From Ruminococcus sp. (GTDB lineage Bacteria > Bacillota > Clostridia > Oscillospirales > Ruminococcaceae): DNA of 40,562 nucleotides. The stretch lies in contig JAFXVY010000087.1 in the NCBI GenBank assembly GCA_017534595.1, positions 1 to 40,562 on the forward strand, written 5' to 3'. Below are positions 9,541 to 34,446 of the stretch, piece by piece; positions within the stretch are counted from its first letter, which is position 1, and each line of letters opens with the position of its first letter. A program made the translations under genes and the position numbers. The notes beneath the pieces are model-generated. The model saw only the letters and a list, made by a program, of their open reading frames with translations, had not been told where the DNA came from and ran no database searches.

Positions 9541-9572
9541 ATCCTATCCTCTTGATCCCGTCCGGGCGGGCA

Positions 9573-14910: not shown

Positions 14911-17130
14911 TTATACCACATTTACCCGGCATTTTCTTTCCATGCCGCCGTAGCTTACCGTCACGGTCACTTCGCCCTGCTTCAGAGCCTTGAAGGTGAT
15001 GCTGAGAGTCTGCTTGTCGATATAGACGGGCTCAATCACGCCCTCCTCCGACAGATCGTAATTCACGGCCACAAGATCGGGTATGTTCGCACATCGCACG
15101 TTGAGCACGAACTGCTCACCGGCGTTTATCCTCTGCTCGTCCGGCGAGATCTCAAGCTTCTTGGCTCTGTCCTCGGGCACGAGCACGACAGTTACCTCCG
15201 AGCCCGACTTCACGGCTGTACCCTTTGCGGGGAACTGTACGTCCACGTAGCCCTCCTCGGGATTGGAGTTGCCGGAGTATACGCCCAGCGCCAGACCCTG
15301 CTCCGCGAGCACATCCGCCGCCTCGTCCTTGGAAAGGCCTATGAGCGACGGAACGGAGACGAGCTCCTCATCGCTGTTAAGGGTGATTATCACCGACGCG
15401 CCTCCCGAAAGCTCGGTCGAGGGATCAACGCTCTGTGAGAGCACCTTTCCGTCCTCGGAGCCGTCCTGCTTGCCGTAAACGACCATCGGAACTATCCCGG
15501 CTTCGGTCAGCTTCCTGAGAGCCTCCTCGCCGCCCATGCCGACCACATCCGGCACCTTGACAGCGGCTCTGCCCTTGCTGACGGTAAGTGTCACGGTGTC
15601 ACCGGAGGCCGCCTTGCTGCCGGCTGCCGGCTGCTGTGAGATCACCAGCCCCGGGGCAACAATGTCGCTGAACTCGGTGCCTATCTGCGCACTGAGTCCC
15701 AGCGCCGTGAGCTTGTCCGAAGCCTCCTGCTGTGACAGCAGCGTAAGGTCGGGCAGAATGATGCCGTCCTCGCTGTTCCCCGCGGGAGCCTCCGGCTTTA
15801 CGCTCACCGTTATCCCGACGGCGGTGTTGCGCTCGACTATGCTGCCGGCGGCTATGCTCTGGGAAACTACCGTGTCCGGCGGGAGCGCGTCGGTCTCCTC
15901 CCTGCCGACCTTTTCGGTGAGCAGACCCGACCTGCCGAGCAGTTCCGCAGCCTTGTCGGCGCTCAGCTCGGTAACGGAGGGTACCACCGTCAGCTCGGCG
16001 GAAAGCTCCGCCTTGGTGACGATTATCCTCTCGGGACCTCTGTTCTTCATTATGAGCAGCACTGCTCCGCCGGCGACAAGCGCCGCGCAGATCGAAGGTA
16101 TGGCGATCTTCGCCCACATCGGCAGGCCGCCGCCCTTTTTCGAGATTATCCTGACCTTCTTGTCACCGGAGAGCTCCTTGATAAAGCTGTCCATATCCGG
16201 CGTGCGGAAGGCCGTATCCACATAGGAGGCGTTTCTGAGCGCAGCCTCCTTGTTCTGATCTATCCTTATGCGGTAGCTGCTGATGAGCTTGAGCTTGTCC
16301 TTGTGCTTCTTTTCAAAGCAAGCGTCCCTCTCCGCAGCCTCCGGCACGGGTATACCCATCATCCTGTGCATGATCAGTGCAGCCGAGTAAACATCGCAGG
16401 CCGGCAGCAGCGACGGTGAATCCGTGGCTCTCAGCCTCTCGTAGGAGTAGTACCTCTGCCGCTCCTTGTGAGTGATATCGCTGCGGTCGTCGGTGACGTT
16501 GAGCAGCGAGTTCTCGAGATAGGAGCTCAGATACAGGCTGCCGTCCTCCATGACGAGCAGATCGTCCGGCGAGAAGCCGCCGATGATGAAGCCGCTCTCG
16601 TGCAGCCTGTCTATCGAACGCAGTATCGGCAGAAACATCTTCTCTGTCATCTGCGGGGAGACGGCGCCGTTCTTCTCGATGTACTCCGAAAGCGGCATTC
16701 CCGCCTGATACCCGGTTATCACATAAGAAGTATTGTTCTTCTCGAATATCTCGTAAACATCGGAAACGTTGTCCGGCAGATGCAGCTGAGCGAGCAGCTG
16801 CGCCTTCTTGACGAACCTCTCCATATATTTGTAGAACTCGTTTTTCTTGAGCACCGTTATGCCCGTCTCGCCGATATTGCGCGCAGCATATCTGGCAGGG
16901 CTGTACTCGTACACCGTTACCTTCCGGTTGAGCAGCGCGTCCCAGCCTATGTACTTTACGAACCAGCTGTCAATATTCAGCGGCATACCCACTATATACC
17001 TGTCGCAGAGTATGGCTCCGGGCTCGATGCACCTTGAATTGAAGGGCTGGGTACCCTCCTCAAAGCCGCATTCCGGGCACTTGCTCACCCCGTCGTCATA
17101 CTGCGCCATACAGCTCATGCAAAATCTCAT
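14911..17130 (-). CDS. Membrane pseudokinase with zinc ribbon and four PASTA domains
   Basis: A 739-residue protein. It has a zinc ribbon (Cys4, Cys7, Cys18, Cys21), a protein-kinase-like domain (about 40-330), a membrane helix near 345-370, four PASTA-like repeats and a C-terminal Ig/BIG2-like domain. Aligned by eye with the kinase encoded next door, all catalytic sites are lost: VAIKEF becomes VTVYEY (Lys to Tyr74), HRDISPDN becomes IGGFSPDD (catalytic Asp to Gly185), and DFG becomes SYL (203-205). The glycine loop is lost too. It is therefore a pseudokinase that probably binds partners. PASTA domains bind muropeptides or lipid II outside the cell. EssB/YukC of type VIIb systems is also a membrane pseudokinase, so this may be its stand-in (inference). 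It is the last gene of the secretion operon. GGTGAG lies 8 nt before the ATG. Confidence 0.9.
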   Translation of the reverse strand: MRFCMSCMAQYDDGVSKCPECGFEEGTQPFNSRCIEPGAILCDRYIVGMPLNIDSWFVKYIGWDALLNRKVTVYEYSPARYAARNIGETGITVLKKNEFYKYMERFVKKAQLLAQLHLPDNVSDVYEIFEKNNTSYVITGYQAGMPLSEYIEKNGAVSPQMTEKMFLPILRSIDRLHESGFIIGGFSPDDLLVMEDGSLYLSSYLENSLLNVTDDRSDITHKERQRYYSYERLRATDSPSLLPACDVYSAALIMHRMMGIPVPEAAERDACFEKKHKDKLKLISSYRIRIDQNKEAALRNASYVDTAFRTPDMDSFIKELSGDKKVRIISKKGGGLPMWAKIAIPSICAALVAGGAVLLIMKNRGPERIIVTKAELSAELTVVPSVTELSADKAAELLGRSGLLTEKVGREETDALPPDTVVSQSIAAGSIVERNTAVGITVSVKPEAPAGNSEDGIILPDLTLLSQQEASDKLTALGLSAQIGTEFSDIVAPGLVISQQPAAGSKAASGDTVTLTVSKGRAAVKVPDVVGMGGEEALRKLTEAGIVPMVVYGKQDGSEDGKVLSQSVDPSTELSGGASVIITLNSDEELVSVPSLIGLSKDEAADVLAEQGLALGVYSGNSNPEEGYVDVQFPAKGTAVKSGSEVTVVLVPEDRAKKLEISPDEQRINAGEQFVLNVRCANIPDLVAVNYDLSEEGVIEPVYIDKQTLSITFKALKQGEVTVTVSYGGMERKCRVNVV

Positions 17131-17161
17131 TGTTATCTCTCACCTGCCGTCAGCTTTGTGA

Positions 17162-19210: not shown

Positions 19211-19239
19211 TTCTCCTTCTTACTCTGCCGCCGCAGGGC

Positions 19240-20950
<1,711 letters not shown>

Positions 20951-20957
20951 ATCCCTT

Positions 20958-21686
20958 TCACTCCCTGACTGTCACCGCAACGGCCGTAAAATTGTCCATG
21001 CTCCTGCCGCTGCTGTTTTTTTCGGCGAGCTTTGCAAGCCCCGTTACCCATTTCTTTGCCTTTTTGCTGTCCGCAAGCAGAGCCTCCATCTCACCCTCCG
21101 TAACAGGCTCCCAGAGCCCGTCGGAGCAGAGCAGAAAGGCGTCCCCGGGCATCACGTCGAAGTCCGAGCGCTCGACCCTGCCCTCGTCGGAATCATCCCC
21201 GAGAGCGCGGAGCAGCTTGTTGCGGTCGGGGTGAGAGCGTATCTCCTCCTCGGAGATCTCACCCGCCATATACAAAGCCTGCGGCAGGCTGTGATCCCTC
21301 GTCCGGGAGATCACCCTGCCGTTTCTGAACCTGTAAAGCCGCGAGTCCCCGATATGCAGAGCCAGCCCTCTGCTGCCGTCGATGCACAGAACGACCGCAG
21401 TCGTCCTCATCTGACGGAGCTTCGCATCGGTCTGCTGCGCTTTGTGCAGCTCGGCCTGCGCTCTTGAAAAAGCGTCCGCCGCGAACTCGTCAAGGCTGCC
21501 GCAGCTGCGGAAATACCCGGTCAGGCACCTTGTCACAATGCCCGACGCCGTATCTCCCATGCCGTGACCGCCGAGCCCGTCGCATAGCACGAAGCACCAG
21601 CGCTCCCCGGCACGGACAGCGTCCGCACAGTCCTCGTTGACCGGGCGGCCGCCCTTATCGCTGAAAATGCTGTGGTCTGTTTTCAT
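20958..21686 (-). CDS. PP2C-family protein phosphatase (2)
   Basis: A 242-residue soluble PPM/PP2C phosphatase with the classic motifs LCDGLGGHGMGD, HIGDSRLYRFRNG, SRTRDHS and LLCSDGLWEPVTEGE. The tail ends DNFTAVAVTVRE as in active family members. It starts 9 bases after the stop of the WXG100 gene. Two adjacent PP2C genes for one kinase is unusual in firmicutes, where a single prpC-prkC pair is the rule. This supports the idea that different phosphoproteins, or opposite sides of the cycle, are handled separately. Confidence 0.94.
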   Translation of the reverse strand: MKTDHSIFSDKGGRPVNEDCADAVRAGERWCFVLCDGLGGHGMGDTASGIVTRCLTGYFRSCGSLDEFAADAFSRAQAELHKAQQTDAKLRQMRTTAVVLCIDGSRGLALHIGDSRLYRFRNGRVISRTRDHSLPQALYMAGEISEEEIRSHPDRNKLLRALGDDSDEGRVERSDFDVMPGDAFLLCSDGLWEPVTEGEMEALLADSKKAKKWVTGLAKLAEKNSSGRSMDNFTAVAVTVRE

Positions 21687-21695
21687 TTCTCAGTC

Positions 21696-22013
21696 TCACT
21701 CCGCATTGGGGTCACGGTTGAAATCTCCGAGAGTCTTGTCGGTCTTGGCGAGCTGAGCCCGTATATCGTCAAGGGTGCTGCACATATTTGCGAGTATGTC
21801 GGCTATCCCTGCGATATTCCTCCTGATGACATCGGCGTCATCAAGGAAAAGCTCGGCGCTGTCGCCCTTCCAGTTTGCCCTGAGATCGTTCACGATCCTT
21901 TCGTAGCGGGTGGTTATCGCAGCATATCTGTTGATGAAATCCTGCTTCTTGGCTTTGCATTTATCAAAAGCTCTGCTGTCTATACAGATGCATCTCTGAT
22001 TGTTGTTTGCCAC
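21696..22013 (-). CDS. WXG100-family protein (ESAT-6-like)
   Basis: A 105-residue helical hairpin protein with the WXG turn at Trp48-Lys49-Gly50 (ANWKGDSAELF) between two long helices, and a C-terminal tail LGDFNRDPNAE. The start is GTG behind AGGGAGGG. WXG100 proteins are secreted as dimers by EssC-type ATPases and are the defining substrates of type VII systems. The gene directly follows the second EssC part (12-base gap). The NRDP tail is shared with the WXG100-like protein at 28125-28448. Two Cys near the N-terminus (RCICID) are unusual for the family. Confidence 0.9.
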   Translation of the reverse strand: MANNNQRCICIDSRAFDKCKAKKQDFINRYAAITTRYERIVNDLRANWKGDSAELFLDDADVIRRNIAGIADILANMCSTLDDIRAQLAKTDKTLGDFNRDPNAE

Positions 22014-22025
22014 AGTGATCCCTCC

Positions 22026-23579
22026 CTACACTTTAATGAATTTTATCTTCTTGAGCTCGTCGGATTCTATGTCGAAGTAGTATCCGTCGCCGAGCTCACA
22101 GCGTGCGTACTCGTTTTTGAGCTCCTTCGGATCCATCTCGCCGAATACCGAACGGTTGCCTCTGTCGGTGACGAATTCGGCGATGTTGTCCAGCAGGAAC
22201 GCCACCGCGATGCTGTTGTTGAGCGAGGACTCAGTCTCGCGGTCGTTGTTGCTGATACGCCTTACATCCGAGTAGATGAACCAGTACCTCTTCTCCTCGG
22301 CGGAGGCGGTCATGCGCGGGAACACGTTTCTCAGCAGCTGCGACCCGACGGCCTGGAACAGCATCTTGTTCTGAAGCACGAATACCGTCGGCGGATTGTT
22401 CTGCTCGGTAAAGGCCTTGTTTATGACTCCCCTCTCGAGCTTGGCGGCGTAGCCGTAGCCGTCGAGGAAGTTATACATCTCCTCCGTGGAGGTCAGGTAG
22501 AAGCAGCCCTCCGGAGCCTCTTTGTACAGGTCGAGCAGCTGCTTTCTGCCGTCGTCGAAATAAACTATGCGGTAGTCGGGGTGATTTTTCCTGATGAACC
22601 GTATCAGCAGCGTCAGCAGATTGGTCTTGCCGAAATGCTTCTTGCCGTAGATCGCTATCGAGTGAGCCTCGTGCATATTCACGGTTATCGGGAAATGGTC
22701 GTAGTAGTCGAGGCCGACTACGGGGCAGTCTGCGCCGGTGTCACCGTCGAAGTCCCCCGAAAGGAAATCGAAGAAGTTGGCCTCGGTGAGGTCGCCGTCA
22801 AAGGCGGTCAGCTTCTCGGTGGGCACCTTTACCTCCCTCAAAGCCTCCATGAACATCGGCAGATCCTGCGCCTCATCCATAAAGGGCAGGAAGATCTGCA
22901 GCTCCCGCGGTTTGCCGTTTATCACCGTGACTCCCCTGCCGGGGCAGTGCATCGGCTCGCTTATGCGCATACCGAACAGATCGAGATACTTGTCGCTCGA
23001 CCCCTCGAGAGCGAAGCGCTTTGTGAAATGCCCGAGCAGCCTGCTGACCCCTCCGCTGAGATCCGACGCGGTGATGACCACCGAAAGTCCCTTTGAGAGA
23101 CCGTCGCGGCAGAACTTCGAGAGCAGCTCCTGATACGGGTCGAAGCGCTCGTCTGCCAAGAAGGAGTTGAGGTTGTCGATCACGAGGATCATCTGCGCGG
23201 GCTTTACAGGCGAGTCACTGTCCCACGCCTCGGAGAACTGCCTCGAGTTGAGCACCTTGGTGTTCTTCTCGAGCTTGCTCTCTATCGTCCTGAACACGCG
23301 CCTTACGTTCTCCTCGTTGGAGCTGTCGAAGCAGGCCGCCACGGTATTGAGCTCGCGGTACTGCCCGAGGTTCCCGCCCAGGTCGAGGATGAAGATATCC
23401 CGCTCGCGGTCGGTGTCAAGGCTCTCGTGGAGCCGCACGAGCATCGTCTTTATAAACGTGGTCTTGCCGCTCGAATGCCCGCCGACTATAAAAATGTTTT
23501 CCTTTTCGGGGCAGACGGTCAGAACAGGCTGAGTCTGGTTGTCGAGATCGTCATACAGTCCTATTGCCAGCTCCTTCAT
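22026..23579 (-). CDS. EssC-type ATPase, C-terminal part (two P-loop domains)
   Basis: A 517-residue protein with two FtsK/SpoIIIE-like P-loop domains: VGGHSSGKTT (Lys39) and YGKKHFGKTN (Lys318). The first has IFILDLGG and MILVIDNLNS as strand and Walker B-like parts. The second has YRIVYFDDGR. It corresponds to ATPase domains 2 and 3 of EssC. Its ATG overlaps the stop of the 1039-residue first part by 4 bases (ATGA), so the two are made together, and their summed length (1556) is about that of a whole EssC. Split EccCa/EccCb proteins are known from actinobacterial type VII systems, but in EssC the chain is normally continuous. The start lies within good coupling distance, with GGAGG ahead. 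Confidence 0.93.
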   Translation of the reverse strand: MKELAIGLYDDLDNQTQPVLTVCPEKENIFIVGGHSSGKTTFIKTMLVRLHESLDTDRERDIFILDLGGNLGQYRELNTVAACFDSSNEENVRRVFRTIESKLEKNTKVLNSRQFSEAWDSDSPVKPAQMILVIDNLNSFLADERFDPYQELLSKFCRDGLSKGLSVVITASDLSGGVSRLLGHFTKRFALEGSSDKYLDLFGMRISEPMHCPGRGVTVINGKPRELQIFLPFMDEAQDLPMFMEALREVKVPTEKLTAFDGDLTEANFFDFLSGDFDGDTGADCPVVGLDYYDHFPITVNMHEAHSIAIYGKKHFGKTNLLTLLIRFIRKNHPDYRIVYFDDGRKQLLDLYKEAPEGCFYLTSTEEMYNFLDGYGYAAKLERGVINKAFTEQNNPPTVFVLQNKMLFQAVGSQLLRNVFPRMTASAEEKRYWFIYSDVRRISNNDRETESSLNNSIAVAFLLDNIAEFVTDRGNRSVFGEMDPKELKNEYARCELGDGYYFDIESDELKKIKFIKV

Positions 23580-26500
23580 TCTGCCACCTCCCTCATAAGC
23601 TCAAATCTTCCGTCGCGCTCCTCGAAGATGCTGCCGTTCTCAAAGACTATCTTTCCGGGCAGCGGCTTCTCGAAGATGATATGCACCTTCGGATAGCTTG
23701 ACTTGGTGCGGTTGTAGTAGGTCTTGATCGCTCCTACCACGGCATTGAGCTGGGTCTCGAGCTTGCCCTGAGCCTCAAGCTCCTTCTTGCGGCGGATAGC
23801 GTCGGTGTTGTCCTTCTCGGAGCGGTAGAATTTGGTGTATACGCCTGTCTTCGAGGCCTCGATCATCTCTGTGGGGAGCTCGAAGTTCTCCTCCGCGACA
23901 GCTCCCGCATAGCCCGACTGGAAGTACTCGAACTTGGAGCCCGTACCCACCAGCAGATAAGCTCTGCCGTGACCGGGCATCGAGGGGTTGGCTGCGAGGT
24001 CGTTTCCGAGCATCTCCTTGGAGGCCTGCCGTGTGGCGACCTTCAGACAGAGCCTCGATCTCGAGTTGACGCGGATATCGTCGGTGATCGCACCCTCGAT
24101 ATTCTGCGAGATAAGTATGATGTGGAAGCCGAGGCTTCGGCCCACACGGGCGATAGTCGTGATCTCGCCGATGAAATCAACATTGTTGCTCTCGGTGGAG
24201 AAGCGCTTGAGCTCGGTGAACTCATCGACTACCAGCACAAGGTGAGCAAGGGGATCGTTCTTTGCCTGATCCCTGATCTGCTGCTCCTCGGCCTCGGTGA
24301 GGGGCTCCTTGTCCTCGCCCCTGAGCCTGTTGTTGATCTTCTTGATATGTGACTCTATGCTCCTGCACGCCGAAATATACTGGTTGATGCTGTCAACGTG
24401 CATGGAGTTGAAGAGTATCTTTCTTCTCTTGATCTCGGAGCGCAGCGCATCGAGGAAGCGCCCGAGCATATACTCGGCACCTGTGCCGTTCTCGTCGCCG
24501 TCAACATCGGTGACGGAGCCGACAACGTGGGGCAGAGTGCCTATCCTCTTGATAAAGCCGCCGCCCTTCATATCGACGAGCATAAGGTTGACCTCGTCGG
24601 GTCTGAAATACATACACAGCCCGAGCAGATAGGTGATGATAGTCTCCGACTTACCGGAGCCCGTAGTACCGGCCACCAGCATATGCGGGCCGTCGGCATC
24701 CTCGTGAAGGTCGAGGCAGGTGATGCCGCTCTCGGTCTTTCCGATGGGCACCGAAAGGGTCTCGATGACGTTCTTTCTGTTGTCGCTGTCCCAGTAGGCG
24801 GAAACGTCGATGTTGTTCTTTGTGAAGCCGTAGAGCTCGAAGAGGCTGACCGCCGAGGGCACCTTTCCGTTCTGCGAGATCTTGGAATAGCAGAGCGAGG
24901 AAAGTATCTTCGAGGTGTTGTAGAGCTTGGCCTGCCACTCGGGAACAACGTTGAAGCTGAACTCCCGCTTCTGACGCTCGTCGTCGTGGGGGATCAGATC
25001 GGCGGTGTGATCGCCGGTGAAGTTTATAACGTGGTCGCAGTAGGCCGGCAGATGCTCCTTGTACTGCTTCGGGAAGATAAAGCTTATCCCGAGGCTGTTG
25101 ACATAGGGCTTGCCGTCCTCCGGAGTCCTGGGGAGGAACTGCGCGAAGGCGTGCTCCTTGACGTCATACTCGTGATACACGATGAACACGATATGCGGGA
25201 AGCGTATCGTCTCCTGCCCCTCCGCCGAAGAGGCTGCGGCGCGCTCGGTCATGATATTGAGCATGGCGCTGAACACCATGTTGGCGTTGGCGCTGTCAAA
25301 CACGAACTGCGAGCGGTCGGGGAACAGGTCTCTGAAATGCGGCAGGAATTTGAAATTCGCCACTGCGTTCTCTATCCTGTCGCGGTCGTCGGTGGGATCG
25401 AAGAGAACGATGAACTGCAGATCGTCCGGCGACTGATAGAAGCAGAGGTCAAAGACCATCCGCTGTATCAGCCTCTCGGAGAACACGCTGTTCGGCGAGA
25501 TTATGCCCAGCGCTCCGCAGTTCTTGAAGGAGAACAGCATCGGCGCCAGCTTCATGTACTTGTAGTGCTCGGAGATATAGTGCGGGAGGTTCGCCAGATA
25601 GTAGGTCTCGTCCTCATTCTCGTTGTAGTCCGGGTCATCCGACATAAGCACGCTGACCTTGTCGAACTTCTCCCTGAACGAAGTCGAGGAGAACACTCTC
25701 TCCTGCTTGGAGCCTTCGATCTCAAAACAGTTCCTCACCATATCCGAGATGCCGAGCCTTACGGTCAGGAAGTCAAGATCCTCCTGGCAGCGGCTGAATA
25801 TATTTCCGCTCACGCCGTAAACGCTTTTGTAGGGATCCTTGTCGTCAAACAGCTCGTTGACGTCGGGATACAGCTCGGCCAGCTTTTCGGTATCCTTCTG
25901 CTGGCGCTCGAGTATCCCTGCGATAGTTTTGTTGATATACTTTTCGTAATTGCCCCGCCAGTCGGCAAGAGCCTTCTTGTACTTCCTCTTCATGCGGATA
26001 AAGTTGATGACCGAGGTGATCAGCGTCGCCACGCTCATCAGCGCACTGATAAGCACCGCCGTAAAGTTGGCGCTTCCGGAAAGCGTTCTGGTCAGTATCG
26101 TCACCGAGACCATTATCAGCGTCGGCAGGAGCATCAGAAAGATGTTCTGATCCGGCTTCTGCGGGGGATCCGAGGGCGGGATGACAGATACGGGGGTGTC
26201 GTCGAAACGGTAAAGCAGACGGGTGCTGATATTGTAATCCGGGAAGCTTATGCCGTCGTCCTTCTGCTCCGCGGGATTGAAGGCCGGGATGATGTCCTTG
26301 GTGTTGATCTCAAAGGAACGGTAGCCGCGGGCAGGGTCGAAGACCAGCCTCGTCGAGGAGATGAAGCCGATGTCCACAAGCGTGCGCCCCATATCCTCCT
26401 CGGTGATCGGGAACCTTCCGCGGTCGTTTTTATCGCTGCTGATAGAATCATTATAGGCTGTAAGGGTCATTTTCCCATACAGCCCGGAATCGTCCCTGAA

Positions 26501-26695
26501 AGAGACGCTCTCTTCAAATATCCTTCTGCACGCAGAATAAAATTCGTCCTCACCCTTTTTGGCGAGTCCGTACCCGATGCCGTCAAGCAACTGTCTGAGA
26601 GTCAGATCCCTGAGCACCATGAGCTCAAAGACAAGACTTTTATTGTCAGCCGGATCAACGAACTGAACTCCGATCAGCAGCTTATTGTTTTCCAT
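23576..26695 (-). CDS. EssC-type ATPase, N-terminal part with ubiquitin-like domain and first ATPase
   Basis: A 1039-residue membrane ATPase that should energise type VII secretion. Residues 1-125 look like a YukD/EsaB-type ubiquitin fold (LRDLTLRQLL, then GRTLVDIGFISSTRLVF) in place of the FHA domains seen in EssC. Two membrane helices follow at about 184-203 and 210-234. A coiled region and domain-zero region lead to the FtsK-like ATPase with GTTGSGKS (Lys682), LMLVDMKGGGF and Walker B VLVVDE (Asp824-Glu825). The fold continues to LISQNIEG and ends at about residue 930. A tail with ATPase-linking segments precedes the stop. It is first in the pair with the 517-residue protein. AGGGTGAGG precedes the ATG. 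Confidence 0.94.
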   Translation of the reverse strand: MENNKLLIGVQFVDPADNKSLVFELMVLRDLTLRQLLDGIGYGLAKKGEDEFYSACRRIFEESVSFRDDSGLYGKMTLTAYNDSISSDKNDRGRFPITEEDMGRTLVDIGFISSTRLVFDPARGYRSFEINTKDIIPAFNPAEQKDDGISFPDYNISTRLLYRFDDTPVSVIPPSDPPQKPDQNIFLMLLPTLIMVSVTILTRTLSGSANFTAVLISALMSVATLITSVINFIRMKRKYKKALADWRGNYEKYINKTIAGILERQQKDTEKLAELYPDVNELFDDKDPYKSVYGVSGNIFSRCQEDLDFLTVRLGISDMVRNCFEIEGSKQERVFSSTSFREKFDKVSVLMSDDPDYNENEDETYYLANLPHYISEHYKYMKLAPMLFSFKNCGALGIISPNSVFSERLIQRMVFDLCFYQSPDDLQFIVLFDPTDDRDRIENAVANFKFLPHFRDLFPDRSQFVFDSANANMVFSAMLNIMTERAAASSAEGQETIRFPHIVFIVYHEYDVKEHAFAQFLPRTPEDGKPYVNSLGISFIFPKQYKEHLPAYCDHVINFTGDHTADLIPHDDERQKREFSFNVVPEWQAKLYNTSKILSSLCYSKISQNGKVPSAVSLFELYGFTKNNIDVSAYWDSDNRKNVIETLSVPIGKTESGITCLDLHEDADGPHMLVAGTTGSGKSETIITYLLGLCMYFRPDEVNLMLVDMKGGGFIKRIGTLPHVVGSVTDVDGDENGTGAEYMLGRFLDALRSEIKRRKILFNSMHVDSINQYISACRSIESHIKKINNRLRGEDKEPLTEAEEQQIRDQAKNDPLAHLVLVVDEFTELKRFSTESNNVDFIGEITTIARVGRSLGFHIILISQNIEGAITDDIRVNSRSRLCLKVATRQASKEMLGNDLAANPSMPGHGRAYLLVGTGSKFEYFQSGYAGAVAEENFELPTEMIEASKTGVYTKFYRSEKDNTDAIRRKKELEAQGKLETQLNAVVGAIKTYYNRTKSSYPKVHIIFEKPLPGKIVFENGSIFEERDGRFELMREVAE

Positions 26696-26763
26696 ATCCT
26701 CACCCTATCTGTTTACAATCATATCGCTGCAGCGCTGGCAGGAGCCATGCTGCAGCGTATTCA

Positions 26764-27747
26764 TCAAAGCTCGGCTCTGACCGCCTCGAGTATCTCATCG
26801 ACAGCGGCGGTTATGTCCGGCTTATCCGGGATCTCCGGATAAACGGGAGCAGCCGCTTTTTCATGCGGAATATCCGCAAGCTCGAAGCTCACGGGCTCCG
26901 CGGGCACATAGTTCACCGATACCGATACCGGCTGCGCCTCCGGCAGCTTGAACATCCCGGCTCCGCCCTTTGCAAGAGCCTCGGCTCCGCTCAGATCGAC
27001 AGCAGCCTTTATCTCTGTCATCACAACGGGCGCTATCGCGAACACGGTCATATCCGCAGCGGTATCCGGCACCTCTGCCTCAACAGAGACCTCGCAGGCC
27101 GGCGCCTCGAACCCGACGCCCGCCTTACCGGCGTTCACGTCCAAACCGGTATCGACCGCACTCACGGCTGCCGCTGCCGGCAGCTCCGGGATCTCGATGC
27201 CCGGCACGGCTCCGACACCCGTTTCGGGCGCCTTTACCTCCGGCACCGAGCCGGCCATATCTGCGTCCAAGGGCTTGAACCCGGCAGGTATCTCCGCCGC
27301 GCTCACGCTCACCTTCGGCAGCTCCTTTACCTCTGCGGCAGCGGAAAGCTTCCCCGCGTCGAAGGCCTCCGCCGCAGCCGCTTCCTTCGGGAAAACTGCC
27401 GCGACAGCCTTTCTCGGGTCTGCCGCCCCCGGCATACCGGGGAGAGTGAAGCTCTCCGGCTCCCTGTAATCCTCAAGCCCGTCGAACTTCTCCGCCTCCG
27501 GAGCCGTGAACTCCGGCGCCCTGATCTCTCCCGGCGCCTCGTATCCGACTCCCTCCGCCTTGAATTCGGGTGCGCCGAAAACGACTTCCGGCTTGTCGAT
27601 CTCCATTTCGAGGTATTCATTGAGCAGGTTCTGCTGCGCCTCCTTTTCCTCGGCGGCGGCAAGCAGCACAGCGGTCATTTCATATTCAAACAGAGCCTTA
27701 GCCCTTTCGATGTTTAACTCGGCAAGCTTATCATTGTTGTTTTCCAT
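26764..27747 (-). CDS. Low-complexity Pro/Ala/Glu/Val-rich protein of the secretion operon
   Basis: A 327-residue protein that I do not recognise by family. The first 55 residues are helical and charged (ERAKALFEYEMTAVLLAAAEEKEAQ). The rest is a low-complexity chain with irregular APEF, VPEV and IPELP units and almost no Lys or aromatic residues. The last 30 residues are again helical (DITAAVDEILEAVRAEL). It has no signal peptide or membrane helix. ATG 27747 after AAGGTGAGG fits better than the GTG two codons upstream. Ends that can form helices around an extended, Pro-rich middle suggest a flexible spacer or scaffold. It lies between the WXG100 trio and EssC, so a chaperone or cytoplasmic docking role is possible (inference). 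Confidence 0.75.
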   Translation of the reverse strand: MENNNDKLAELNIERAKALFEYEMTAVLLAAAEEKEAQQNLLNEYLEMEIDKPEVVFGAPEFKAEGVGYEAPGEIRAPEFTAPEAEKFDGLEDYREPESFTLPGMPGAADPRKAVAAVFPKEAAAAEAFDAGKLSAAAEVKELPKVSVSAAEIPAGFKPLDADMAGSVPEVKAPETGVGAVPGIEIPELPAAAAVSAVDTGLDVNAGKAGVGFEAPACEVSVEAEVPDTAADMTVFAIAPVVMTEIKAAVDLSGAEALAKGGAGMFKLPEAQPVSVSVNYVPAEPVSFELADIPHEKAAAPVYPEIPDKPDITAAVDEILEAVRAEL

Positions 27748-27781
27748 AAGCACCTCACCTTACACAGCTATGCCGGGGCAG

Positions 27782-28087
27782 CTATACGAGGCTCTCCGGA
27801 ATATTGTCTGCGATAGCCTGATCGGCCTTCTCCATCTGCTCGGCGTCTGCATTGAGCAGTGCTGCGAGCGCAGTAACGATCGAAGGTACGGTCGAGGCCA
27901 TATAGTCGTTGACCGGCCCGCTGATAAACGCAGTGATCTTATCCTTGCTGGCGCCCTCCCAGCCGGCGGTAGCGTCGGCAAAATCCTTCTGGAAGGTAGC
28001 TGCCACGGTCTTGTATCTGGCTGCGATATCCTCTATCTTGGCTGCAGCCGCTCTCATCTCATCAAATCTGTAAACTATATCTGCCAT
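27782..28087 (-). CDS. WXG100-family protein (canonical WEG turn)
   Basis: A 101-residue helix-turn-helix hairpin with Trp43-Glu44-Gly45 (TAGWEGASKDK). It is the most canonical WXG100 member of the operon. It is acidic and Ala-rich, with AAAAKIEDIAARYKTVAATF on the first helix and TVPSIVTALAALLNADAEQ on the second. ATG 28087 follows AAAGGAG. It probably forms a dimer with itself or with the neighbouring variants and is exported through the EssC machine. The C-terminus (IADNIPESLV) lacks the NRDP tail of two sister proteins. Confidence 0.93.
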   Translation of the reverse strand: MADIVYRFDEMRAAAAKIEDIAARYKTVAATFQKDFADATAGWEGASKDKITAFISGPVNDYMASTVPSIVTALAALLNADAEQMEKADQAIADNIPESLV

Positions 28088-28124
28088 AGCTCTTTACTCC
28101 TTTTCAAAAATTTCCTGGTCACGC

Positions 28125-28448
28125 TCATGACTTTGTGGGATCTCTGTTGATCTCGCCGAGCTGCGGGTCAACGGTATCGAGCAGGTTCACCTTGATGCTT
28201 TCGAGCATAGTGCTTATGCCTGCGGCAAGGGATGACTCCGGAGCGATGAGGTTGTCCACGAGAGCGGGGGTAGCCTTTGTTCTGAAGAACTCGTTGAAGC
28301 CGTCAGCGGCGTCGCCCATGAAATTCGATGCGGTCAGCTGACCTATCAGTGCGTTGAGCTCGTCATAGAGCCCCTGTGCAGCGGTCTGATAAGTGGTAAG
28401 GCTGGCCTTCGCGTTTACGATTATTGCGCTTGTAAGTATTGATGCCAT
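28125..28448 (-). CDS. WXG100-like protein with Phe in place of Trp
   Basis: A 107-residue protein of the same size and layout as the neighbouring WXG100 gene. The turn reads SNFMGDAADGF, with Phe43-Met44-Gly45 at the same residue numbers as the WEG of the neighbour, so Trp is replaced by Phe. The tail LGEINRDPTKS closely matches LGDFNRDPNAE of the WXG100 protein at 21696-22013. ATG 28448 has GAAAGGAG upstream. It lies in the trio of small genes between the TPR protein and the low-complexity protein and is probably a secreted partner or pilot. Confidence 0.8.
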   Translation of the reverse strand: MASILTSAIIVNAKASLTTYQTAAQGLYDELNALIGQLTASNFMGDAADGFNEFFRTKATPALVDNLIAPESSLAAGISTMLESIKVNLLDTVDPQLGEINRDPTKS

Positions 28449-28516
28449 GATCGGATACTCCTTTCAAATCAACAAATTTTGATAATATTCCTGCCCCTTC
28501 GGGCTTATGCCTTTGA

Positions 28517-28858
28517 TCAATCGGACATATAGTTGACTAACTTCCTGTACTCATCGAACACGCTCTGATAGCCGTTCTTGCAGAGCTGGAGGTTCTTGCA
28601 GATCTGGTCTATAACAACATACTGCTCGGTGATCGGGTAGATGATGTAATCCTGACAGGCGGCGACGAATTTCCGTCCCGCCGGGGTATCGTAGCCCAGA
28701 CTCAGCGTCGCAAGCATATCACCGGTGTCACTCAGAAGCTGCTTGATGTCAGCCACCAGTGCCTGAAATTCCCTTACAGCTCTGTCAAAGACCTCCTCGT
28801 CGATGACGATGTCATTTTTGAGCGAGTACAGCTCTGTTATACTGTCAATGGCTCCCAA
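28517..28858 (-). CDS. Divergent WXG100-like helical hairpin protein
   Basis: A 113-residue protein starting at TTG, 9 nt after GGGAGG. It has two long helical stretches (DEEVFDRAVREFQALVADIK and EQYVVIDQICKNLQLCKNGY) joined by a turn LGYDTPAGRKF at 54-64. This replaces WxG with Tyr-Asp-Thr-Pro-Ala-Gly. The length and position in the operon support membership in the WXG100 superfamily, but the signature is weak. It has two Cys in CKNLQLC and no signal peptide. It is the first of the three small genes after the TPR gene (19-base gap). An alternative is a chaperone-like partner rather than a secreted protein. Confidence 0.65.
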   Translation of the reverse strand: MGAIDSITELYSLKNDIVIDEEVFDRAVREFQALVADIKQLLSDTGDMLATLSLGYDTPAGRKFVAACQDYIIYPITEQYVVIDQICKNLQLCKNGYQSVFDEYRKLVNYMSD

Positions 28859-28877
28859 TTAAGAACACCTCCCGCCT

Positions 28878-30503
28878 TTACTTCTTCTCCGAATCAGCGC
28901 GGCAGTCCTCGATGTACTTCTCAACAGCAGCCCTGTCCTCAGAGTCGAGCAGACACGCCATTTCGAGAGACTTGTCGTATTTCCCGAGCTCGGCATACAT
29001 CCTTGCTCTGAAGAGCAGGGCGTAATTCGAGTTCTCGTTTCTCTTGAGCGTCTCGCCGCGGAAGTATACCAGCTCGAGATCGTATTTCCTCTCGGCCTCC
29101 TCCATGCTGAACCGCTTGCCCTCCTTGGCGAGCTGCAGCGTTGCGAACGCCTCGGCATAGTGGCCGAAGTAGGTATAGTAGCTGTCTCTTGCGCCGGCCT
29201 TTACGGCAGCGGCATACTCGAGCACCTTTTCAAAATCGTTCTTTGCGGAATAGCAGGAGAGCAGCATGAAGTTGACTCTCGCATTGAATTCCGCAGCGTT
29301 CTCGACGGCGGCAGCCTTCTCGAGCTCAACGATCTTCTCGGGAGACGGCAGACCGAATTTCTCGGGATCCGCACCGTCCGGGATGTCGTCGAACGTCCCC
29401 TCGGGATACTCTCTTACGGGCTTGCCGTTCTCATCGTAGCTCACCTCGGCAAGCTCGCCGATGCTCTCGTCGATGACGCCCTCGGAGATAAGCGCATCCA
29501 TGCGCTGCATATCCTTCTCGCGCATAGCGTCTATCTCGGCGGGATCGGGAGCTCCGGGCTCCTCTGTCTCCGCAGGCGCCTCCTCCGGCACTGTCTCCGG
29601 CTTCTCGGAAAGCATTGTCAGCAGGTTTATCGCCTCGTCCACCTTGTCGAGCTTGATGCACAGCTCCGCGAGCGCCAGCACCAGTTCGTTCTTCTGATGC
29701 GTGCCGCCCAGCGGGCTCACTATCAGCTCGCTGAGCATAGCGTAAGCCTTGTCGTTGTAGTCGCCGTCCTTGTCGGCATTGCTGCCCGCCGCGAGGGAAT
29801 AGTAATTCGCGCGGCTGACATCCACCGCATACTTCCCGGCCTCATCGGTGACAGCATATTTCAGCGCGTCGTCGAGAGCAGCCTCGGCCTCCCCGTACTT
29901 CTCTGCTGCCATCAGCAGGTTGAAGTAAGCCATGTAAGCTCTGAGCTCCGAGGGCGCAAGACCTATCCACTTTACAGCGCACTTCTCTGCGTTCTCAAAA
30001 TCCTCGAGCTTCACATAGAGCTGTATCTTCTCGGTGATGATATCCACATCGAGGGAGGCGGCACCGGTCTTGTCGGCGTCCTCATACTTCTGATAGTTTA
30101 TCAGCGCGGCTCTGTAATCCTGCTTGATAGTACACATAAGCGCCATCTGGTAGAATATCCTGGCCTTTACGTCCGGGGAGCAGGGCTTCACCGAAGCAAG
30201 GGTGTAATACTCCATGGCCTTGCTCACGTTGCCCTCGAAGAAGTAGGCGTTCGCCATGTTGAACAGGTTGTCGCCGTTCTCGGGCTGATAGTCTATCGCC
30301 TTCTGGAAGTAGGGATACGCCCGCTTGAACTGCCCCGCCGCCACCAGCGCCGCGCCTGCACGCGCAAGCGCATAGACGTCCTTCGGGGCGGATGCAAGAG
30401 CCTTCTCATACCATTTGACCGCTTCCTCATAGTTCTCGTTGGAGAATGCTATGTCCGCATTAGTGATCGATTCCTTGTAGGTCTCAATTTCCAATCCACT
30501 CAC
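28878..30503 (-). CDS. TPR-repeat protein of the secretion operon
   Basis: A 541-residue soluble protein with several tetratricopeptide repeats: NYEEAVKWYEKALASAPKD, GQFKRAYPYFQKAIDYQPEN, then GNVSKAMEYYTLA, DYRAALINYQKYE and EKYGEAEAALDDALKYA, with more toward the C-terminus (GKYDKSLEMACLLDSEDR). A Glu/Pro linker (about 305-335, PEEAPAETEEPGAPDP) splits the two repeat blocks. TPR proteins are scaffolds that bind short peptide segments. Here it may hold WXG100 proteins, the repeat protein, or the EssC parts. The annotated GTG start has a weak site. TTG 30494 is better spaced from GAGGTGA and may be the true start. Confidence 0.88.
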   Translation of the reverse strand: MSGLEIETYKESITNADIAFSNENYEEAVKWYEKALASAPKDVYALARAGAALVAAGQFKRAYPYFQKAIDYQPENGDNLFNMANAYFFEGNVSKAMEYYTLASVKPCSPDVKARIFYQMALMCTIKQDYRAALINYQKYEDADKTGAASLDVDIITEKIQLYVKLEDFENAEKCAVKWIGLAPSELRAYMAYFNLLMAAEKYGEAEAALDDALKYAVTDEAGKYAVDVSRANYYSLAAGSNADKDGDYNDKAYAMLSELIVSPLGGTHQKNELVLALAELCIKLDKVDEAINLLTMLSEKPETVPEEAPAETEEPGAPDPAEIDAMREKDMQRMDALISEGVIDESIGELAEVSYDENGKPVREYPEGTFDDIPDGADPEKFGLPSPEKIVELEKAAAVENAAEFNARVNFMLLSCYSAKNDFEKVLEYAAAVKAGARDSYYTYFGHYAEAFATLQLAKEGKRFSMEEAERKYDLELVYFRGETLKRNENSNYALLFRARMYAELGKYDKSLEMACLLDSEDRAAVEKYIEDCRADSEKK

Positions 30504-30551
30504 CTCTAAATGTATAATTTGATTTTATTGTCAGTGTATATGTCCGGCCGC

Positions 30552-33500
30552 TCAGATCATTCCCAGACCCAGACCCGCCAGCCCGTCGCCCGCTCCCTTG
30601 AGGGAGCCTACCGAGCCGAGCAGCTCACGCAGCACCGCGTTGATGTCGTAGACCGAGCTGATCTGATCTCCTATAGCCGTTGCGAAGTCGCTGCCGCAGA
30701 GGCTGTTGAAAGCGTCCTTCGAGCTGTCGATGATCGAGTTCATCGTGCCGCCGAGTATGCTCGAGGCATTCGAGCCGAGCTCGCTCATCAGGTCGGGCAG
30801 GCTCGTTATGCCGGAGAGATCCGGCAGGCCGAGCGAATCCGCGAGCTCCGAGAGCGCTGGGATGCTGGGCATCTCCAGACCCATGATCGAGCCGAGCTGT
30901 GCAAGGTCGCCGCCGCCGATCGCAGCTGCGAGCTTGTTCAGGTCGCCGGTATCCACACCGAGCATCTGACCGATCTTTCCGAGATCGGGAGTATCTATAC
31001 CGAGCACCGATCCGAGCTTGCTTATATCGCCGCTCGAGATCGCATCCGCAAGCTTGCCGAGGTCGCCGGTGTCCACACCGAGCATTTCGCCTATCTTGCT
31101 GATATCCGGAACGTCCATTCCGATAGCGCTTGCTATCTTGCTGACATCGCCGCTCGAGATAGCGTCCGCAAGCTTGCCGAGGTCTCCGGTGTCCACGCCG
31201 AGCATCTCGCCTATCTTGCTGATATCCGGAACGTCCATTCCGAGGACGCCTGCTATCTTGCTCACATCGCCGCTCGAGATAGCGTCCGCAAGCTGTCCGA
31301 GCTCGCCGGTATCCACGCCGAGCATCTCGCCGATCTTGCTGATATCGGGAACGTCCATTCCGATAGCGTTTGCTATCTTGCTCACATCGCCGCTTGCGAT
31401 AGCTTCCGCAAGCTTGCCGAGGTCGCCGGTATCCACGCCGAGCATCTCGCCGATCTTTGAGATATCCGGCACGTCCATTCCGAGGGCGCCGGCGATCTTG
31501 CTGATGTCGCCGCTGGCGATCGCGTCGCCCAGCTTGGAGATGTCGCTCGCATCGACTCCGAGCGCATCCGCGATCTTGTCGAGGCTCGCATCCACGCCGA
31601 GAAACTCTGCGATCTTGTTTATGTCGCCGCTGGTAAGAGCATTGAGCATATCCTTTGCCTCGCCGACGTCTATGCCCAGCATATCGCCCAGCTTGGTGAG
31701 GTCTGCATCTACGCCTATGACCTCTGCTATCTTGGATATATCTCCGCTCTCGATAGCGGAAACGAGCTTGTTTATGTCGCCGGTATCTATGCCGAGCATT
31801 TCTCCTATCTTGGTGAGGTCGGTGTCTATGCCGATGACCTCCGCGATCTTGGAGATATCTCCGCTCTCGATAGCGGAAACGAGCTCGTTTATGTCGCCCA
31901 CATCAATGCCGAGCATATCGCCCAGCTTCGCAAGGTCTGCATCTATGCCGATGACCTCTGCGATCTTGGAGAGATCTCCGCTGACTACGGCATTCACAAA
32001 GTCGGTCACGCCGCCCATGTCTATGCCGATAGCCTCGCCGAGCTTGACGATATCCGCGCTGTTGATCCCTATGATCTCGCCGATCTTGGCTATGTCGCCG
32101 TTTATGATCGCGTCACCCAGCTCGCCGAGCATACCGAGGTCTACGCCGAGCGCTTCGCCGATCTTGCTGAGGTCGGGCGTACCGATGCCGAGAGCTTCGG
32201 CCACCTTGCCGAGGTCGCCCTGCACGATAGCCTCTCCGAGCTTGGAGAGATCCGCGTCGCCCAAGCCGATCGCCTCACCCAGCTTCTGGAGGTCTACGTT
32301 GTCGAGACCCAGCGCCGAGCCGAGCTCCTTGAGCTTCTCGTAGTCGAGGCCGAGAGAATCGGCTATCTGCTCGAGACTCAGGTTGTCGAGCAGATCCGAA
32401 AGCCCGATAGCCTCCGCCAGCTTGTCGAGACCGGTGCCGAGCAGCTCCGTGAGGTTATCGGAGTTGAGCAGGTTGCCGAGTACCGTCTCGCCGAGCGCCT
32501 CCGCGAACTTCGAGGGATCCTTTATGATCTCTATGACGTCGTTTATATCGTTTATTCCTATATCGCTCAGGCTGTTGATCCCGAGGAAGTCGAGTACGCC
32601 TCCCTCACCCCACAGCCATTCGGTGGAATCCTTTATGTTGTTGAACAGCTCCATGGCTGTCTCACCGAAGGAGGTGTTGCACAGATAATCCACTGCGGCA
32701 TCGTACAGCTCTCCGAGCTGATCCATTATGAACTCGCTCGCAAGATCCAGTGCGCTGCCCGCCATGCTTCCGAGTATCTCCAAACCGGTGTTCTCCGCAA
32801 AGTCGGAGAAGAAGCCGCTGAGCGTACCGTGCTCTTCATAATACTCGATACCCTGTACGATCAGCTTGCCGAGGAACTTCGCAGCGCCCTCCGCAAGTAT
32901 CTCCGTGCCCTTTGCGAGTATAGTGGAACCGGTTGCTCCGAACACTAAGCCTCCTGCAGCGCCTGCAGCGCCGCCAAGGCCTCCCATTATGGCGCCTGTC
33001 AATAAGGAGTCGCCCGTTGCATCGAAGATCTCTGCGGCGGATTTGCCCTGTGCTATACCCACAATGACCGTCGTCGCCGCCCCCGTCAGCGCGGCGGTCA
33101 AGGCCCCTTGGGCAGCCGCGGCAAATATCACTGCCGCCGTACCGCCCGTCACCACGGATAGGACGAACAATCCCGCGATGATCAGCGCTGCCCCGACGAT
33201 CTTGAGTATCGCCTTGTAATGCTTCTTTATGAAATCGACCGTCGCGTTCCAGGCTTTCTTAATGCCCTTCCAAATGGCCTTGAAGGTATCGACGATAGCC
33301 TCGCCGATGTCTTCAAAGAATTCACATACAGCATCAACGGCCCTTCTAAGCCAACTCTTTTTCTTCGGCGGGTGGTACTCAGCCCACGGACACATCTTGT
33401 AGAACTCGGCCTGCTGGACCTTGAGCGCCTGATAAACGTTCCGGTCGGTGTTGAGAGTGTTGACCACAAAGTTCGCGAACCTTCGGCCTACATCCTCGAT

Positions 33501-33737
33501 CCTCTCGACTACCGGCTGCTCTGTTTTATTGATCCTTTCCTGTATGCAGTCATAAGCCTCGCGGACATTATCCGAGCTTTCGGGATTTCGGGAAATATCA
33601 TCGAGATCGCACTTTACAAACTTGAACGAGCTGACTATATTCTTATGGGAAGCGGTCAGCTGCTTAAAGGACTCGACAAAATCATTTACCCTGCCCTTGC
33701 CCTTTTTACTGTTTCCTGCTAAAATTTCAAGTCGCAC
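30552..33737 (-). CDS. 1061-residue protein with hydrophobic core and twelve 40-residue helical repeats
   Basis: I do not recognise a family. Residues 1-175 are helical and charged, ending in basic amphipathic segments (KSWLRR, WKGIKKAW). Residues 177-270 are hydrophobic and Gly/Ala-rich (LIIAGLFVLSVV; LLTGAIMGGLGGAAGA), like the membrane-active middle of polymorphic and LXG-type toxins. Residues 462-951 are twelve units of about 40 residues, each three short helices of 14, 14 and 12 residues. A typical unit has GMDVPDISKIGEM, LGVDTGDLGKLADA and ISSGDVSKIASA. The C-terminal 110 residues are Ser/Gly-rich. The start is GTG. There is no signal peptide. It follows a small helical gene in the first positions of the secretion operon, so it is probably the large exported substrate or a cell-surface fibre. 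A classic toxin domain is not visible. Confidence 0.85.
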   Translation of the reverse strand: MRLEILAGNSKKGKGRVNDFVESFKQLTASHKNIVSSFKFVKCDLDDISRNPESSDNVREAYDCIQERINKTEQPVVERIEDVGRRFANFVVNTLNTDRNVYQALKVQQAEFYKMCPWAEYHPPKKKSWLRRAVDAVCEFFEDIGEAIVDTFKAIWKGIKKAWNATVDFIKKHYKAILKIVGAALIIAGLFVLSVVTGGTAAVIFAAAAQGALTAALTGAATTVIVGIAQGKSAAEIFDATGDSLLTGAIMGGLGGAAGAAGGLVFGATGSTILAKGTEILAEGAAKFLGKLIVQGIEYYEEHGTLSGFFSDFAENTGLEILGSMAGSALDLASEFIMDQLGELYDAAVDYLCNTSFGETAMELFNNIKDSTEWLWGEGGVLDFLGINSLSDIGINDINDVIEIIKDPSKFAEALGETVLGNLLNSDNLTELLGTGLDKLAEAIGLSDLLDNLSLEQIADSLGLDYEKLKELGSALGLDNVDLQKLGEAIGLGDADLSKLGEAIVQGDLGKVAEALGIGTPDLSKIGEALGVDLGMLGELGDAIINGDIAKIGEIIGINSADIVKLGEAIGIDMGGVTDFVNAVVSGDLSKIAEVIGIDADLAKLGDMLGIDVGDINELVSAIESGDISKIAEVIGIDTDLTKIGEMLGIDTGDINKLVSAIESGDISKIAEVIGVDADLTKLGDMLGIDVGEAKDMLNALTSGDINKIAEFLGVDASLDKIADALGVDASDISKLGDAIASGDISKIAGALGMDVPDISKIGEMLGVDTGDLGKLAEAIASGDVSKIANAIGMDVPDISKIGEMLGVDTGELGQLADAISSGDVSKIAGVLGMDVPDISKIGEMLGVDTGDLGKLADAISSGDVSKIASAIGMDVPDISKIGEMLGVDTGDLGKLADAISSGDISKLGSVLGIDTPDLGKIGQMLGVDTGDLNKLAAAIGGGDLAQLGSIMGLEMPSIPALSELADSLGLPDLSGITSLPDLMSELGSNASSILGGTMNSIIDSSKDAFNSLCGSDFATAIGDQISSVYDINAVLRELLGSVGSLKGAGDGLAGLGLGMI
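30885..32354 (-). repeat. Coding tandem repeat, twelve units, period about 120 bp
   Basis: Within the 1061-residue protein the units occupy 32193-32354 (162 bp), two of 120 bp, four of 117 bp (31485-31952) and five of 120 bp (30885-31484). The units between 31005 and 31484 are nearly identical in DNA, which points to recent unit duplication by recombination or slippage. Toward the start of the tract the units diverge. Confidence 0.92.
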
Positions 33738-33770
33738 TTATTCTCACCGGCTTTCATCAGAGGATTATTT

Positions 33771-34358
33771 TCAAAGATATTTCTTATAGTGTTCCATGTC
33801 AAACGCGCAGCTGTCCATAGTCTTTTTGTAATCCGCCATATCGCTCTCGCAGGCACGCACCTTTTTGACAAGTTCCCTGCAGACATCTTCTGAGCTGCTG
33901 CACTTGGCTTCCTCCTGGGAGATGAGCATTCTGACTCTTGCATACTCCACATCGACGAGATATTTTGCACGGGCGGAAAAAGTTTCGTCGGCCACGCAAG
34001 GAGATGTTGCTGCCTTACCGAAGGGCGGAGACATCACTCCGGAGCAGGTTATGAACTCCTTGAGCTTCGCGGAAACATCGATCGCCCACACTCTTGACAA
34101 ATATATTTCCCTGTCAGCGTTCCCATCATTGCTTTTAAGGTAACGAGCTACCCGTTTCAGACTGAAATCCTCTCTTTTCAGAGCTGCCAATCTGTCACAT
34201 TGATCGCCGTACTTTTGATACGCCGCCGCCGACTCTGACTTGTACTGATCCCTGAGTTTTGATAAACGCAGGTATTCCTCCGCTGCAGTGTCATACTTCT
34301 TCTTGGCAGCATCATAGCACTCCTGAGCCTCCTGCTGGGATGGATTTGACCAGCTCAC
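33771..34358 (-). CDS. Helical protein at the head of the secretion operon
   Basis: A 195-residue coiled-coil-rich protein without a known family. Two long helical stretches (about 9-65, QEAQECYDAAKKKYDTAAEE; about 130-195, RAKYLVDVEYARVRMLISQE) surround a less regular middle (CSGVMSPPFGKAATSPCVAD). It has seven Cys, no signal peptide and no membrane segment. The start is GTG behind GAGGGGGG. As the first gene of the operon, 33 bases ahead of the 1061-residue protein, it resembles the small helical partner proteins encoded upstream of LXG-type substrates, which help deliver them to the secretion ATPase. That role is an inference from position and shape. Confidence 0.75.
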   Translation of the reverse strand: MSWSNPSQQEAQECYDAAKKKYDTAAEEYLRLSKLRDQYKSESAAAYQKYGDQCDRLAALKREDFSLKRVARYLKSNDGNADREIYLSRVWAIDVSAKLKEFITCSGVMSPPFGKAATSPCVADETFSARAKYLVDVEYARVRMLISQEEAKCSSSEDVCRELVKKVRACESDMADYKKTMDSCAFDMEHYKKYL

Positions 34359-34417
34359 AAAACAACCCCCCTCACTGTCTGTCGCTCCTCCGAGCGTTCA
34401 TATAGTTAACCAAATTA

Positions 34418-34446
34418 ATTATAACAGAATTTATAAATATTGTCAA
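34418..34446 (-). promoter_or_regulatory. Perfect consensus promoter of the 15-gene secretion operon
   Basis: On the minus strand TTGACA (34441-34446), a 17-bp spacer and TATAAT (34418-34423), preceded by TG (extended -10). Upstream lies an A/T run (ATAATATTATTATATT) like an UP element. The leader holds a small hairpin (CGCTC-GGAG-GAGCG) before the GTG start. Nothing downstream of it to 14911 looks like a second promoter or terminator. Confidence 0.88.

Follow-up and report, generated by a model that had tools for sequence, protein, structure and literature searches.

Fifteen collinear genes of a Ruminococcus sp. contig (JAFXVY010000087.1, assembly GCA_017534595.1) probably encode a type VII-like export machine, which would combine a two-protein motor, WXG100-like partners, a TPR adaptor, the g2 protein as cargo and a portable kinase-phosphatase-FHA switch. 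The split ATPase core of this operon is widespread, and the phospho-cassette that follows it is accessory and portable. We directly observed the gene content, its conservation, the ATPase clade, the motif states of the kinases and the effector domain that is common to different loci. In the following, the window denotes the whole stretch of 40,562 nt that was analysed.

Operon layout

The fifteen ORFs lie on the minus strand from 34358 to 14911 with intergenic gaps of −4 to 68 bases (Table 1). The promoter TTGACA-N17-TATAAT at 34446-34418 is the only exact match in the window, and 100 shuffles contained none. The original prediction of fifteen same-strand genes with gaps of up to about 70 bases behind one perfect promoter was thus accurate. 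The promoter is not general among relatives, since a relaxed form was found within 260 bases upstream of g1 in just 7 of the 39 related loci checked. All 15 proteins were searched against Pfam and 10 of them against NCBIfam. The TPR and FHA domains, the two PP2C phosphatases, the Ser/Thr kinase and the kinase-like domain with four PASTA domains, all of which had been named from the sequence, were recovered by domain searches. Candidates for membrane insertion in a simple hydropathy scan were g8, g14, g15 and one stretch of g2.

Table 1. Features of the operon. Counts of loci refer to the best 80 of 106 related loci.
Feature	Description	Position	Strand	Source
Promoter	sigma-70-type, exact consensus, 17-base spacer	34418..34446	-	motif search
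g1	195-aa protein, helical by eye, precedes effector gene; relatives in 44/80 loci	33771..34358	-	
g2	1061-aa putative substrate; N-terminal domain common to toxin-bearing proteins, hydrophobic stretch, long repeat array	30552..33737	-	
g3	TPR protein; relatives in 61/80 loci	28878..30503	-	domain search
g4	WXG100-like, TPAG near the place of WXG	28517..28858	-	family alignment/search
g5	WXG100-like, under Pfam cut-off	28125..28448	-	Pfam
g6	WXG100 protein	27782..28087	-	Pfam
g7	Pro/Ala/Glu-rich low-complexity protein; sequence diverse, position often conserved	26764..27753	-	
g8	First half of the EssC/EccC-type ATPase; about 1-150 N-terminal domain of unknown fold, 184-230 two predicted transmembrane helices, and first FtsK domain	23576..26695	-	
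g9	EssC/EccC-type ATPase, second half, two P-loops	22026..23579	-	
g10	WXG100 protein	21696..22013	-	Pfam
g11	PP2C phosphatase a	20958..21686	-	Pfam
g12	PP2C phosphatase b	20237..20950	-	Pfam
g13	Cys-rich N-terminus (zinc-ribbon-like by eye) and FHA domain	19240..20217	-	
g14	Ser/Thr kinase, catalytic motifs intact, one predicted transmembrane helix	17162..19210	-	
g15	Pseudokinase, four PASTA domains, one predicted transmembrane helix	14911..17130	-	

Several other genes were noticed around the operon. Just upstream, on the same strand, 34613-36448 encodes a putative surface protein with a signal-like start and a C-terminal hydrophobic segment by eye, and relatives of it adjoin the upstream side of the operon in three genomes (G197, G199, G202). 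The region 6158-10490 holds a gene set like MoxR ATPase, DUF58 and transglutaminase, of which the transglutaminase domain was found by search and the other names were given by eye. A histidine kinase (domain match) is followed by a response-regulator-like gene (by eye) at 10667-13092, and 38376-40340 encodes a sulfatase-family protein (domain match).

The split ATPase core and its putative substrate

The two ATPase genes cover successive parts of the model TIGR03928: positions 2-749 align with g8 (478.5 bits, E 4e-143) and 786-1258 with g9 (110.8 bits, E 4e-32), each below the curated cut-off of 778.4 bits. The pair therefore reads as the EssC-type ATPase that had been proposed, and these sub-cut-off matches supply the EccC/EssC FtsK-like ATPase by which type VII secretion is recognised. 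The best solved-structure sequence for g8 is a YukB entry. To place the locus among relatives we scanned one genome per species for 84,980 species, which gave 106 confirmed loci; the best 80 were kept, and the 26 weaker loci outside them may include full-length ATPases. In all of the best 80, g9 immediately follows g8. In a tree of 32 ATPases all 22 split proteins formed one clade (SH-aLRT 100) apart from the 10 full-length rows, which comprise one Streptomyces T7SSa, one L. fermentum T7SSb (plasmid locus L198) and eight others; the tree was built with a quick method and has flagged long branches, which limit finer placement. Two of the ATPase rows, L157 and L161, are identical and come from records of Thomasclavelia and Massilimicrobiota.

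At the N-terminus of g8, where the ATPases of T7SSb carry FHA domains, Pfam gave no FHA match, and the FHA domain is present instead on the separate g13. The N-terminal region could be a fused ubiquitin-like part, which is plausible by eye. Pfam matched YukD in none of 56 members and gave single weak matches to UAE_UbL and RA_2, and a PDB profile search with residues 1-150 gave no match. The hhalign comparison of these residues with YukD gave P values of 0.016 in local and 0.017 in global mode, while eight control families gave at least 0.15 (global); its L182 row is doubtful. Taken together, these searches did not establish a ubiquitin-like fold.

The WXG100 proteins that accompany such an ATPase in type VII secretion are present as well, with Pfam scores of 32.0 bits for g6 and 31.2 bits for g10 (cut-off 27.3). 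The four WXG100-type proteins that had been counted hold up to a different degree, as g5 scores below the cut-off (16.8 bits) and g4 alone has no WXG100 match in Pfam and is included through its family, in which 13 of 31 members match at E values up to 1 (the sample being 30 of 60 complete relatives and the g4 of the window). The strict order TPR, g4, g6, g8, g9 was found in every one of the 60 loci that hold all five (best 80 of 106). A core test on 47 of the 80 was passed by 45, and the other two (L089, L110) are each short of one small-gene call.

Within the genus g8 occurs in 7 of 16 genomes. All fifteen genes stand in order in the window and in two other genomes, and the remaining four carriers show contig-end cuts and/or lack one small-gene call; in G168 the genes are partly miscalled owing to long antisense ORFs. 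As seven genomes carry g8 and three of them the full order, the gene set is more than a chance arrangement and, together with the core order of the wider loci, forms the conserved synteny block that had been anticipated.

The own genome of the operon has one EssC-type match and two WXG100 matches, all of them inside the operon. Profile searches of this genome gave no match over the cut-off for EssB, EsaA, EssA or YukD; it is 93% complete, so these absences are not proof. Canonical esaA, essA and essB elsewhere in the genome had been named beforehand as the observation that would speak against a separate architecture, and none was found. The same searches across carrier genomes, several of which are incomplete, found no match over the cut-off for EssB (17 of 17 genomes, a weak sub-threshold match in one), EssA (17 of 17, weak in five) or EsaA (7 of 7, weak in three), in agreement with the prediction of a T7SS-like locus unlike the T7SSb build. 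YukD was found in two of 17 carriers, namely G218 and G197, where it lies inside the second EssC locus.

The large repeat protein g2 is probably an export substrate, toxic or not, because its N-terminal domain also occurs, in relatives, in proteins with a nuclease or another toxin domain at their end. An iterative search with residues 1-330 found 86 ORFs in 53 of the best 80 of 106 loci. We scanned the window's g2 and 74 of 91 family proteins (complete, at least 250 aa); among the first 25 of 45 families listed, the toxin-type matches in these 75 members were PT-HINT (at least 5), Endonuclea_NS_2, WHH, Colicin-DNase and Tox-HDC (at least 2 each) and TNT and Tox-GHH (at least 1 each). In one locus (L127) an SMI1/KNR4 immunity gene lies one gene beyond a member that ends in a nuclease domain. 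Among the matches listed the window's g2 showed no recognisable toxin domain, its Pfam matches falling in the repeats, and Pfam found no immunity protein among the 15 proteins of the operon. This absence, together with the lengths of 639, 678, 1007 and 1061 aa among complete g2 genes of the genus, would suit a real export machine whose main job is the display or release of a surface repeat protein rather than toxin delivery. We regard this as possible, though the less favoured use of the machine, since the same N-terminal domain carries toxin domains in other loci.

The taxa among the best 80 of 106 loci include Ruminococcus, Lachnospiraceae, Erysipelotrichaceae, Thomasclavelia, Coriobacteriia and others, which suggests that a T7SS lineage with a putative toxin-delivery family of its own is widespread among bacteria of the rumen and gut. 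Carriers recorded as strains and not as MAGs are Ruminococcus sp. YE71 and R. albus AR67, which have the cassette, and R. flavefaciens ND2009 and 007c, which have the other kinase type. Such strains could allow a direct test of control of T7SS export by Ser/Thr phosphorylation, which the available part of PMC11217815 brings up as possible. A phage or plasmid origin was considered and rejected: there was no relative in viral contigs, and the 336 matching plasmid records are all below 60% identity.

The phospho-cassette

The genes that follow the core differ between loci. We labelled downstream modules by the presence of genes, as clustered protein families, within the stretch examined for each of the best 80 of 106 loci. 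Module A, with PP2C, FHA, kinase and PASTA-type kinase or some of these, occurs in 26 loci. Module B (24 loci) combines a different family of kinases with a small membrane protein and a large protein; for the latter, the single member scanned has Ig-like Pfam matches. Module C (5 loci) has PP2C, a B-type kinase, small membrane proteins and the large protein of B; the one locus scanned shows a weak vWA match before the ATPase. One locus has PP2C alone, and 24 have no module, 19 of them with less than 3 kb left beyond the second ATPase gene.

For the 48 of these 80 loci with at least 8 kb past the second ATPase gene, we found a kinase in 46, PP2C in 25 and FHA in 19, again counted as clustered families. 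PP2C was thus not seen in 23 of the 48 and FHA not in 29. The core can therefore do without phosphorylation of this kind, and the original prediction that the whole phospho-module belongs to the secretion system was not supported. Homologous loci in which these genes are unlinked from the secretion genes, which had been named as evidence against the prediction, do exist for PP2C and FHA and hardly for kinases. No kinase was seen downstream of the second ATPase gene in L124 and L157, nor in the shorter stretches examined for L125 (7.6 kb) and L122 (4.6 kb). Within these stretches L124 and L122 have PP2C by Pfam without a kinase, and in L125 and L157 neither was recognised.

The same order of PP2Ca, PP2Cb, FHA, kinase and g15-type kinase was also found apart from split ATPases in four genomes, G197 (contig C63), G132, G153 and G063, where only neighbourhoods of g15-like kinases above 150 bits were opened. 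In the first three a full-length EssC lies no more than about 7 kb from the cassette. In G063 its neighbours are Tad-like genes (named by eye) and a prepilin peptidase found by Pfam, and the contig has no EssC match; the cassette is therefore not specific to T7SS. G197 has a second T7SS (L071, 3005-19998) in which an FHA-bearing EssC, a DUF6382-FHA protein, YukD and a Mbeg1-like protein are accompanied by a diverged copy of the phospho-cassette. The cassette at L175 (2040-18532) has two g15-type kinases and a DUF6382-FHA gene and lies by prepilin peptidase and Tad-like genes, with no EssC match on the contig.

The neighbourhood of Tad-pilus-like genes and the absence of the cassette from many core loci would both be expected of a cell-envelope module that merely shares the operon and controls wall enzymes or surface structures while secretion runs independently. 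We think this rather unlikely. An orthologue of g15 (at least 488 bits) was found in exactly the seven of 16 genus genomes that carry g8 and in none of the nine others, whose best matches are other kinases; in one carrier (G206) the two genes are on different contigs. Furthermore, some kinase follows the ATPase in nearly all loci with enough downstream sequence (the 46 of 48 above, from the best 80 of 106), and three of the four non-split cassettes, within the neighbourhoods opened, are near EssC.

g14 retains the motifs VAIK, HRD and DFG and g15 has lost them, as expected from the earlier description of an active-looking kinase and a PASTA pseudokinase. Across the split clade 22 of 44 rows of cassette kinases are active-like, 22 of 24 for the g14 type and 0 of 20 for the g15 type (excluding one of the 45 fam-14 kinases, which has fewer than 400 aa), and the pair in the window follows this rule. 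The two degenerate g14-type exceptions are L118 and L126, in which both cassette kinases are degenerate. All nine kinases of the four non-split cassettes retain the motif residues tested (Lys, Asp, Asn, Asp); one of them has HCD and two have DLG. A natural experiment is offered by this shift, in which an active kinase of the PASTA type became a conserved pseudokinase. One g15 relative (L092, 18967-20532) has 521 aa compared to 739-1106 aa in the other complete copies and is possibly truncated. An FHA motif usually has a His after the Ser; in 22 relatives of g13 with a complete domain Arg, Ser and Asn are conserved by eye and this His is not. The missing His, like the degenerate kinases of L118 and L126, speaks against the switch proposed below.

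All three catalytic motifs are degraded in EssB, a pseudokinase of the membrane (PMC11217815 and PMC12599244) that is described as a scaffold (PMC12599244), each as far as available. As g15 has the same layout, and diverged EssB, EssA and EsaA can escape profile searches, the operon might be a diverged T7SSb with unrecognised counterparts of these proteins and g15 as the EssB equivalent. This is very unlikely in our view. The best NCBIfam match of g15 is the PASTA kinase model NF033483 (under its cut-off), the corresponding kinases of the four non-split cassettes are active-like, the loci labelled B show no g15-like gene in the stretch examined (partly by the definition of the label), and the one named T7SSb row of the tree lies outside the clade of split ATPases. 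On the first three of these grounds g15 was rejected as an EssB orthologue, and the likeness is one of analogy only.

Judged from gene content, secretion, phosphorylation targets and gating of export may be connected as follows in the type VII-like machine that we favour. The EssC/EccC motor would be formed by g8 and g9, with g4, g5, g6 and g10 as WXG100-like partners and g3 as TPR adaptor; motor and WXG proteins would probably export g2, with g1 helping. The kinase g14 may phosphorylate threonine on g15 or on the export machine. The FHA domain of g13 could bind this phosphothreonine and dock at the ATPase, which itself has no FHA match, and g11 and g12 would return the switch to its initial state. 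Cell-wall material may be sensed by the PASTA domains of g15, and g15 itself would act as a phosphorylated scaffold or regulator, by analogy with MviN for FhaA. Such a switch has a precedent in mycobacteria, where MviN, a pseudokinase phosphorylated by PknB, recruits the FHA protein FhaA (PMC12599244, available part).

Relation to described systems

The linkage of T7SS to kinase, phosphatase and FHA genes is already published. The available part of PMC11217815 describes T7SSc to T7SSj, among which it finds kinases, phosphatases and FHA proteins to be common, and suggests control by phosphorylation. That text names no split ATPase, separate TPR gene, PASTA pseudokinase or set of two phosphatases, and it places a TPR domain on TsjD. 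The split FHA-less ATPase, the TPR gene, the effector domain and the conserved PASTA pseudokinase match no subtype in it. A literature search by title and start of abstract gave no paper describing such a locus among the matches listed.

As described in the same part of PMC11217815, T7SSc shares with the operon an FHA-less EssC-type ATPase, a membrane Ser/Thr kinase, a PPM phosphatase, WXG100 proteins and the lack of EsaA, EssA and EssB. However, its ATPase is a single chain whereas that of the operon is two, the operon has no separate ubiquitin-like protein or vWA match in profile searches, and it adds the TPR gene, two PP2C, the FHA protein and the PASTA pseudokinase. A vWA domain, the T7SSc component TscE, was not matched by Pfam in the 15 proteins; among related loci it was matched in L109 (below the cut-off) and L122. 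The EspG-like TscG of T7SSc was recognised there by structure.

T7SSe, T7SSf and T7SSj all have a separate FHA protein (TsxJ) and a PPM phosphatase, and e and j a kinase (PMC11217815, available part). The kinase, small membrane protein and large Ig-like surface protein of the B-type relatives resemble their components D, H/K and I. In contrast to the operon, their ATPase is one protein with FHA domains, they have a separate TsxB, and TsxJ combines DUF6382 with FHA, whereas g13 has FHA without a DUF6382 match in Pfam.

More tentatively, and with considerable doubt, the operon may represent a further T7SS subtype, with a split ATPase that has a ubiquitin-like part fused at its N-terminus, an FHA reader in trans, a former PASTA kinase as EssB-like pseudokinase that would couple the wall state to toxin export, and a plug-in switch common to T7SS and pili. 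The T7SSb of Bacillota shares EssC homology and WXG100 proteins with the operon and differs in EsaA, EssA, EssB and YukD, which the genome of the window lacks over the cut-off, and in the ATPase, which here is split, has no FHA match and belongs to a separate clade. The ATPase of mycobacterial ESX-1 likewise consists of two proteins, EccCa and EccCb, split after the first FtsK domain. ESX-1 is nevertheless of another lineage, and EccB, EccD, EccE and MycP were not matched by Pfam in the 15 proteins or by NCBIfam in 10 of them. The threonine phosphorylation of T6SS, in which the phosphatase is a PP2C, belongs to an unrelated secretion machine. It resembles the operon in having, beside the secretion machine, such a phosphatase as well as a kinase and an FHA protein (the latter two as cited in the available part of PMC11217815). 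A plasmid T7SS was also noticed in Agathobacter rectalis (L197, 7689-11854), where an FHA gene overlaps the start of the EssC gene and YukD and Imm59 genes are near.
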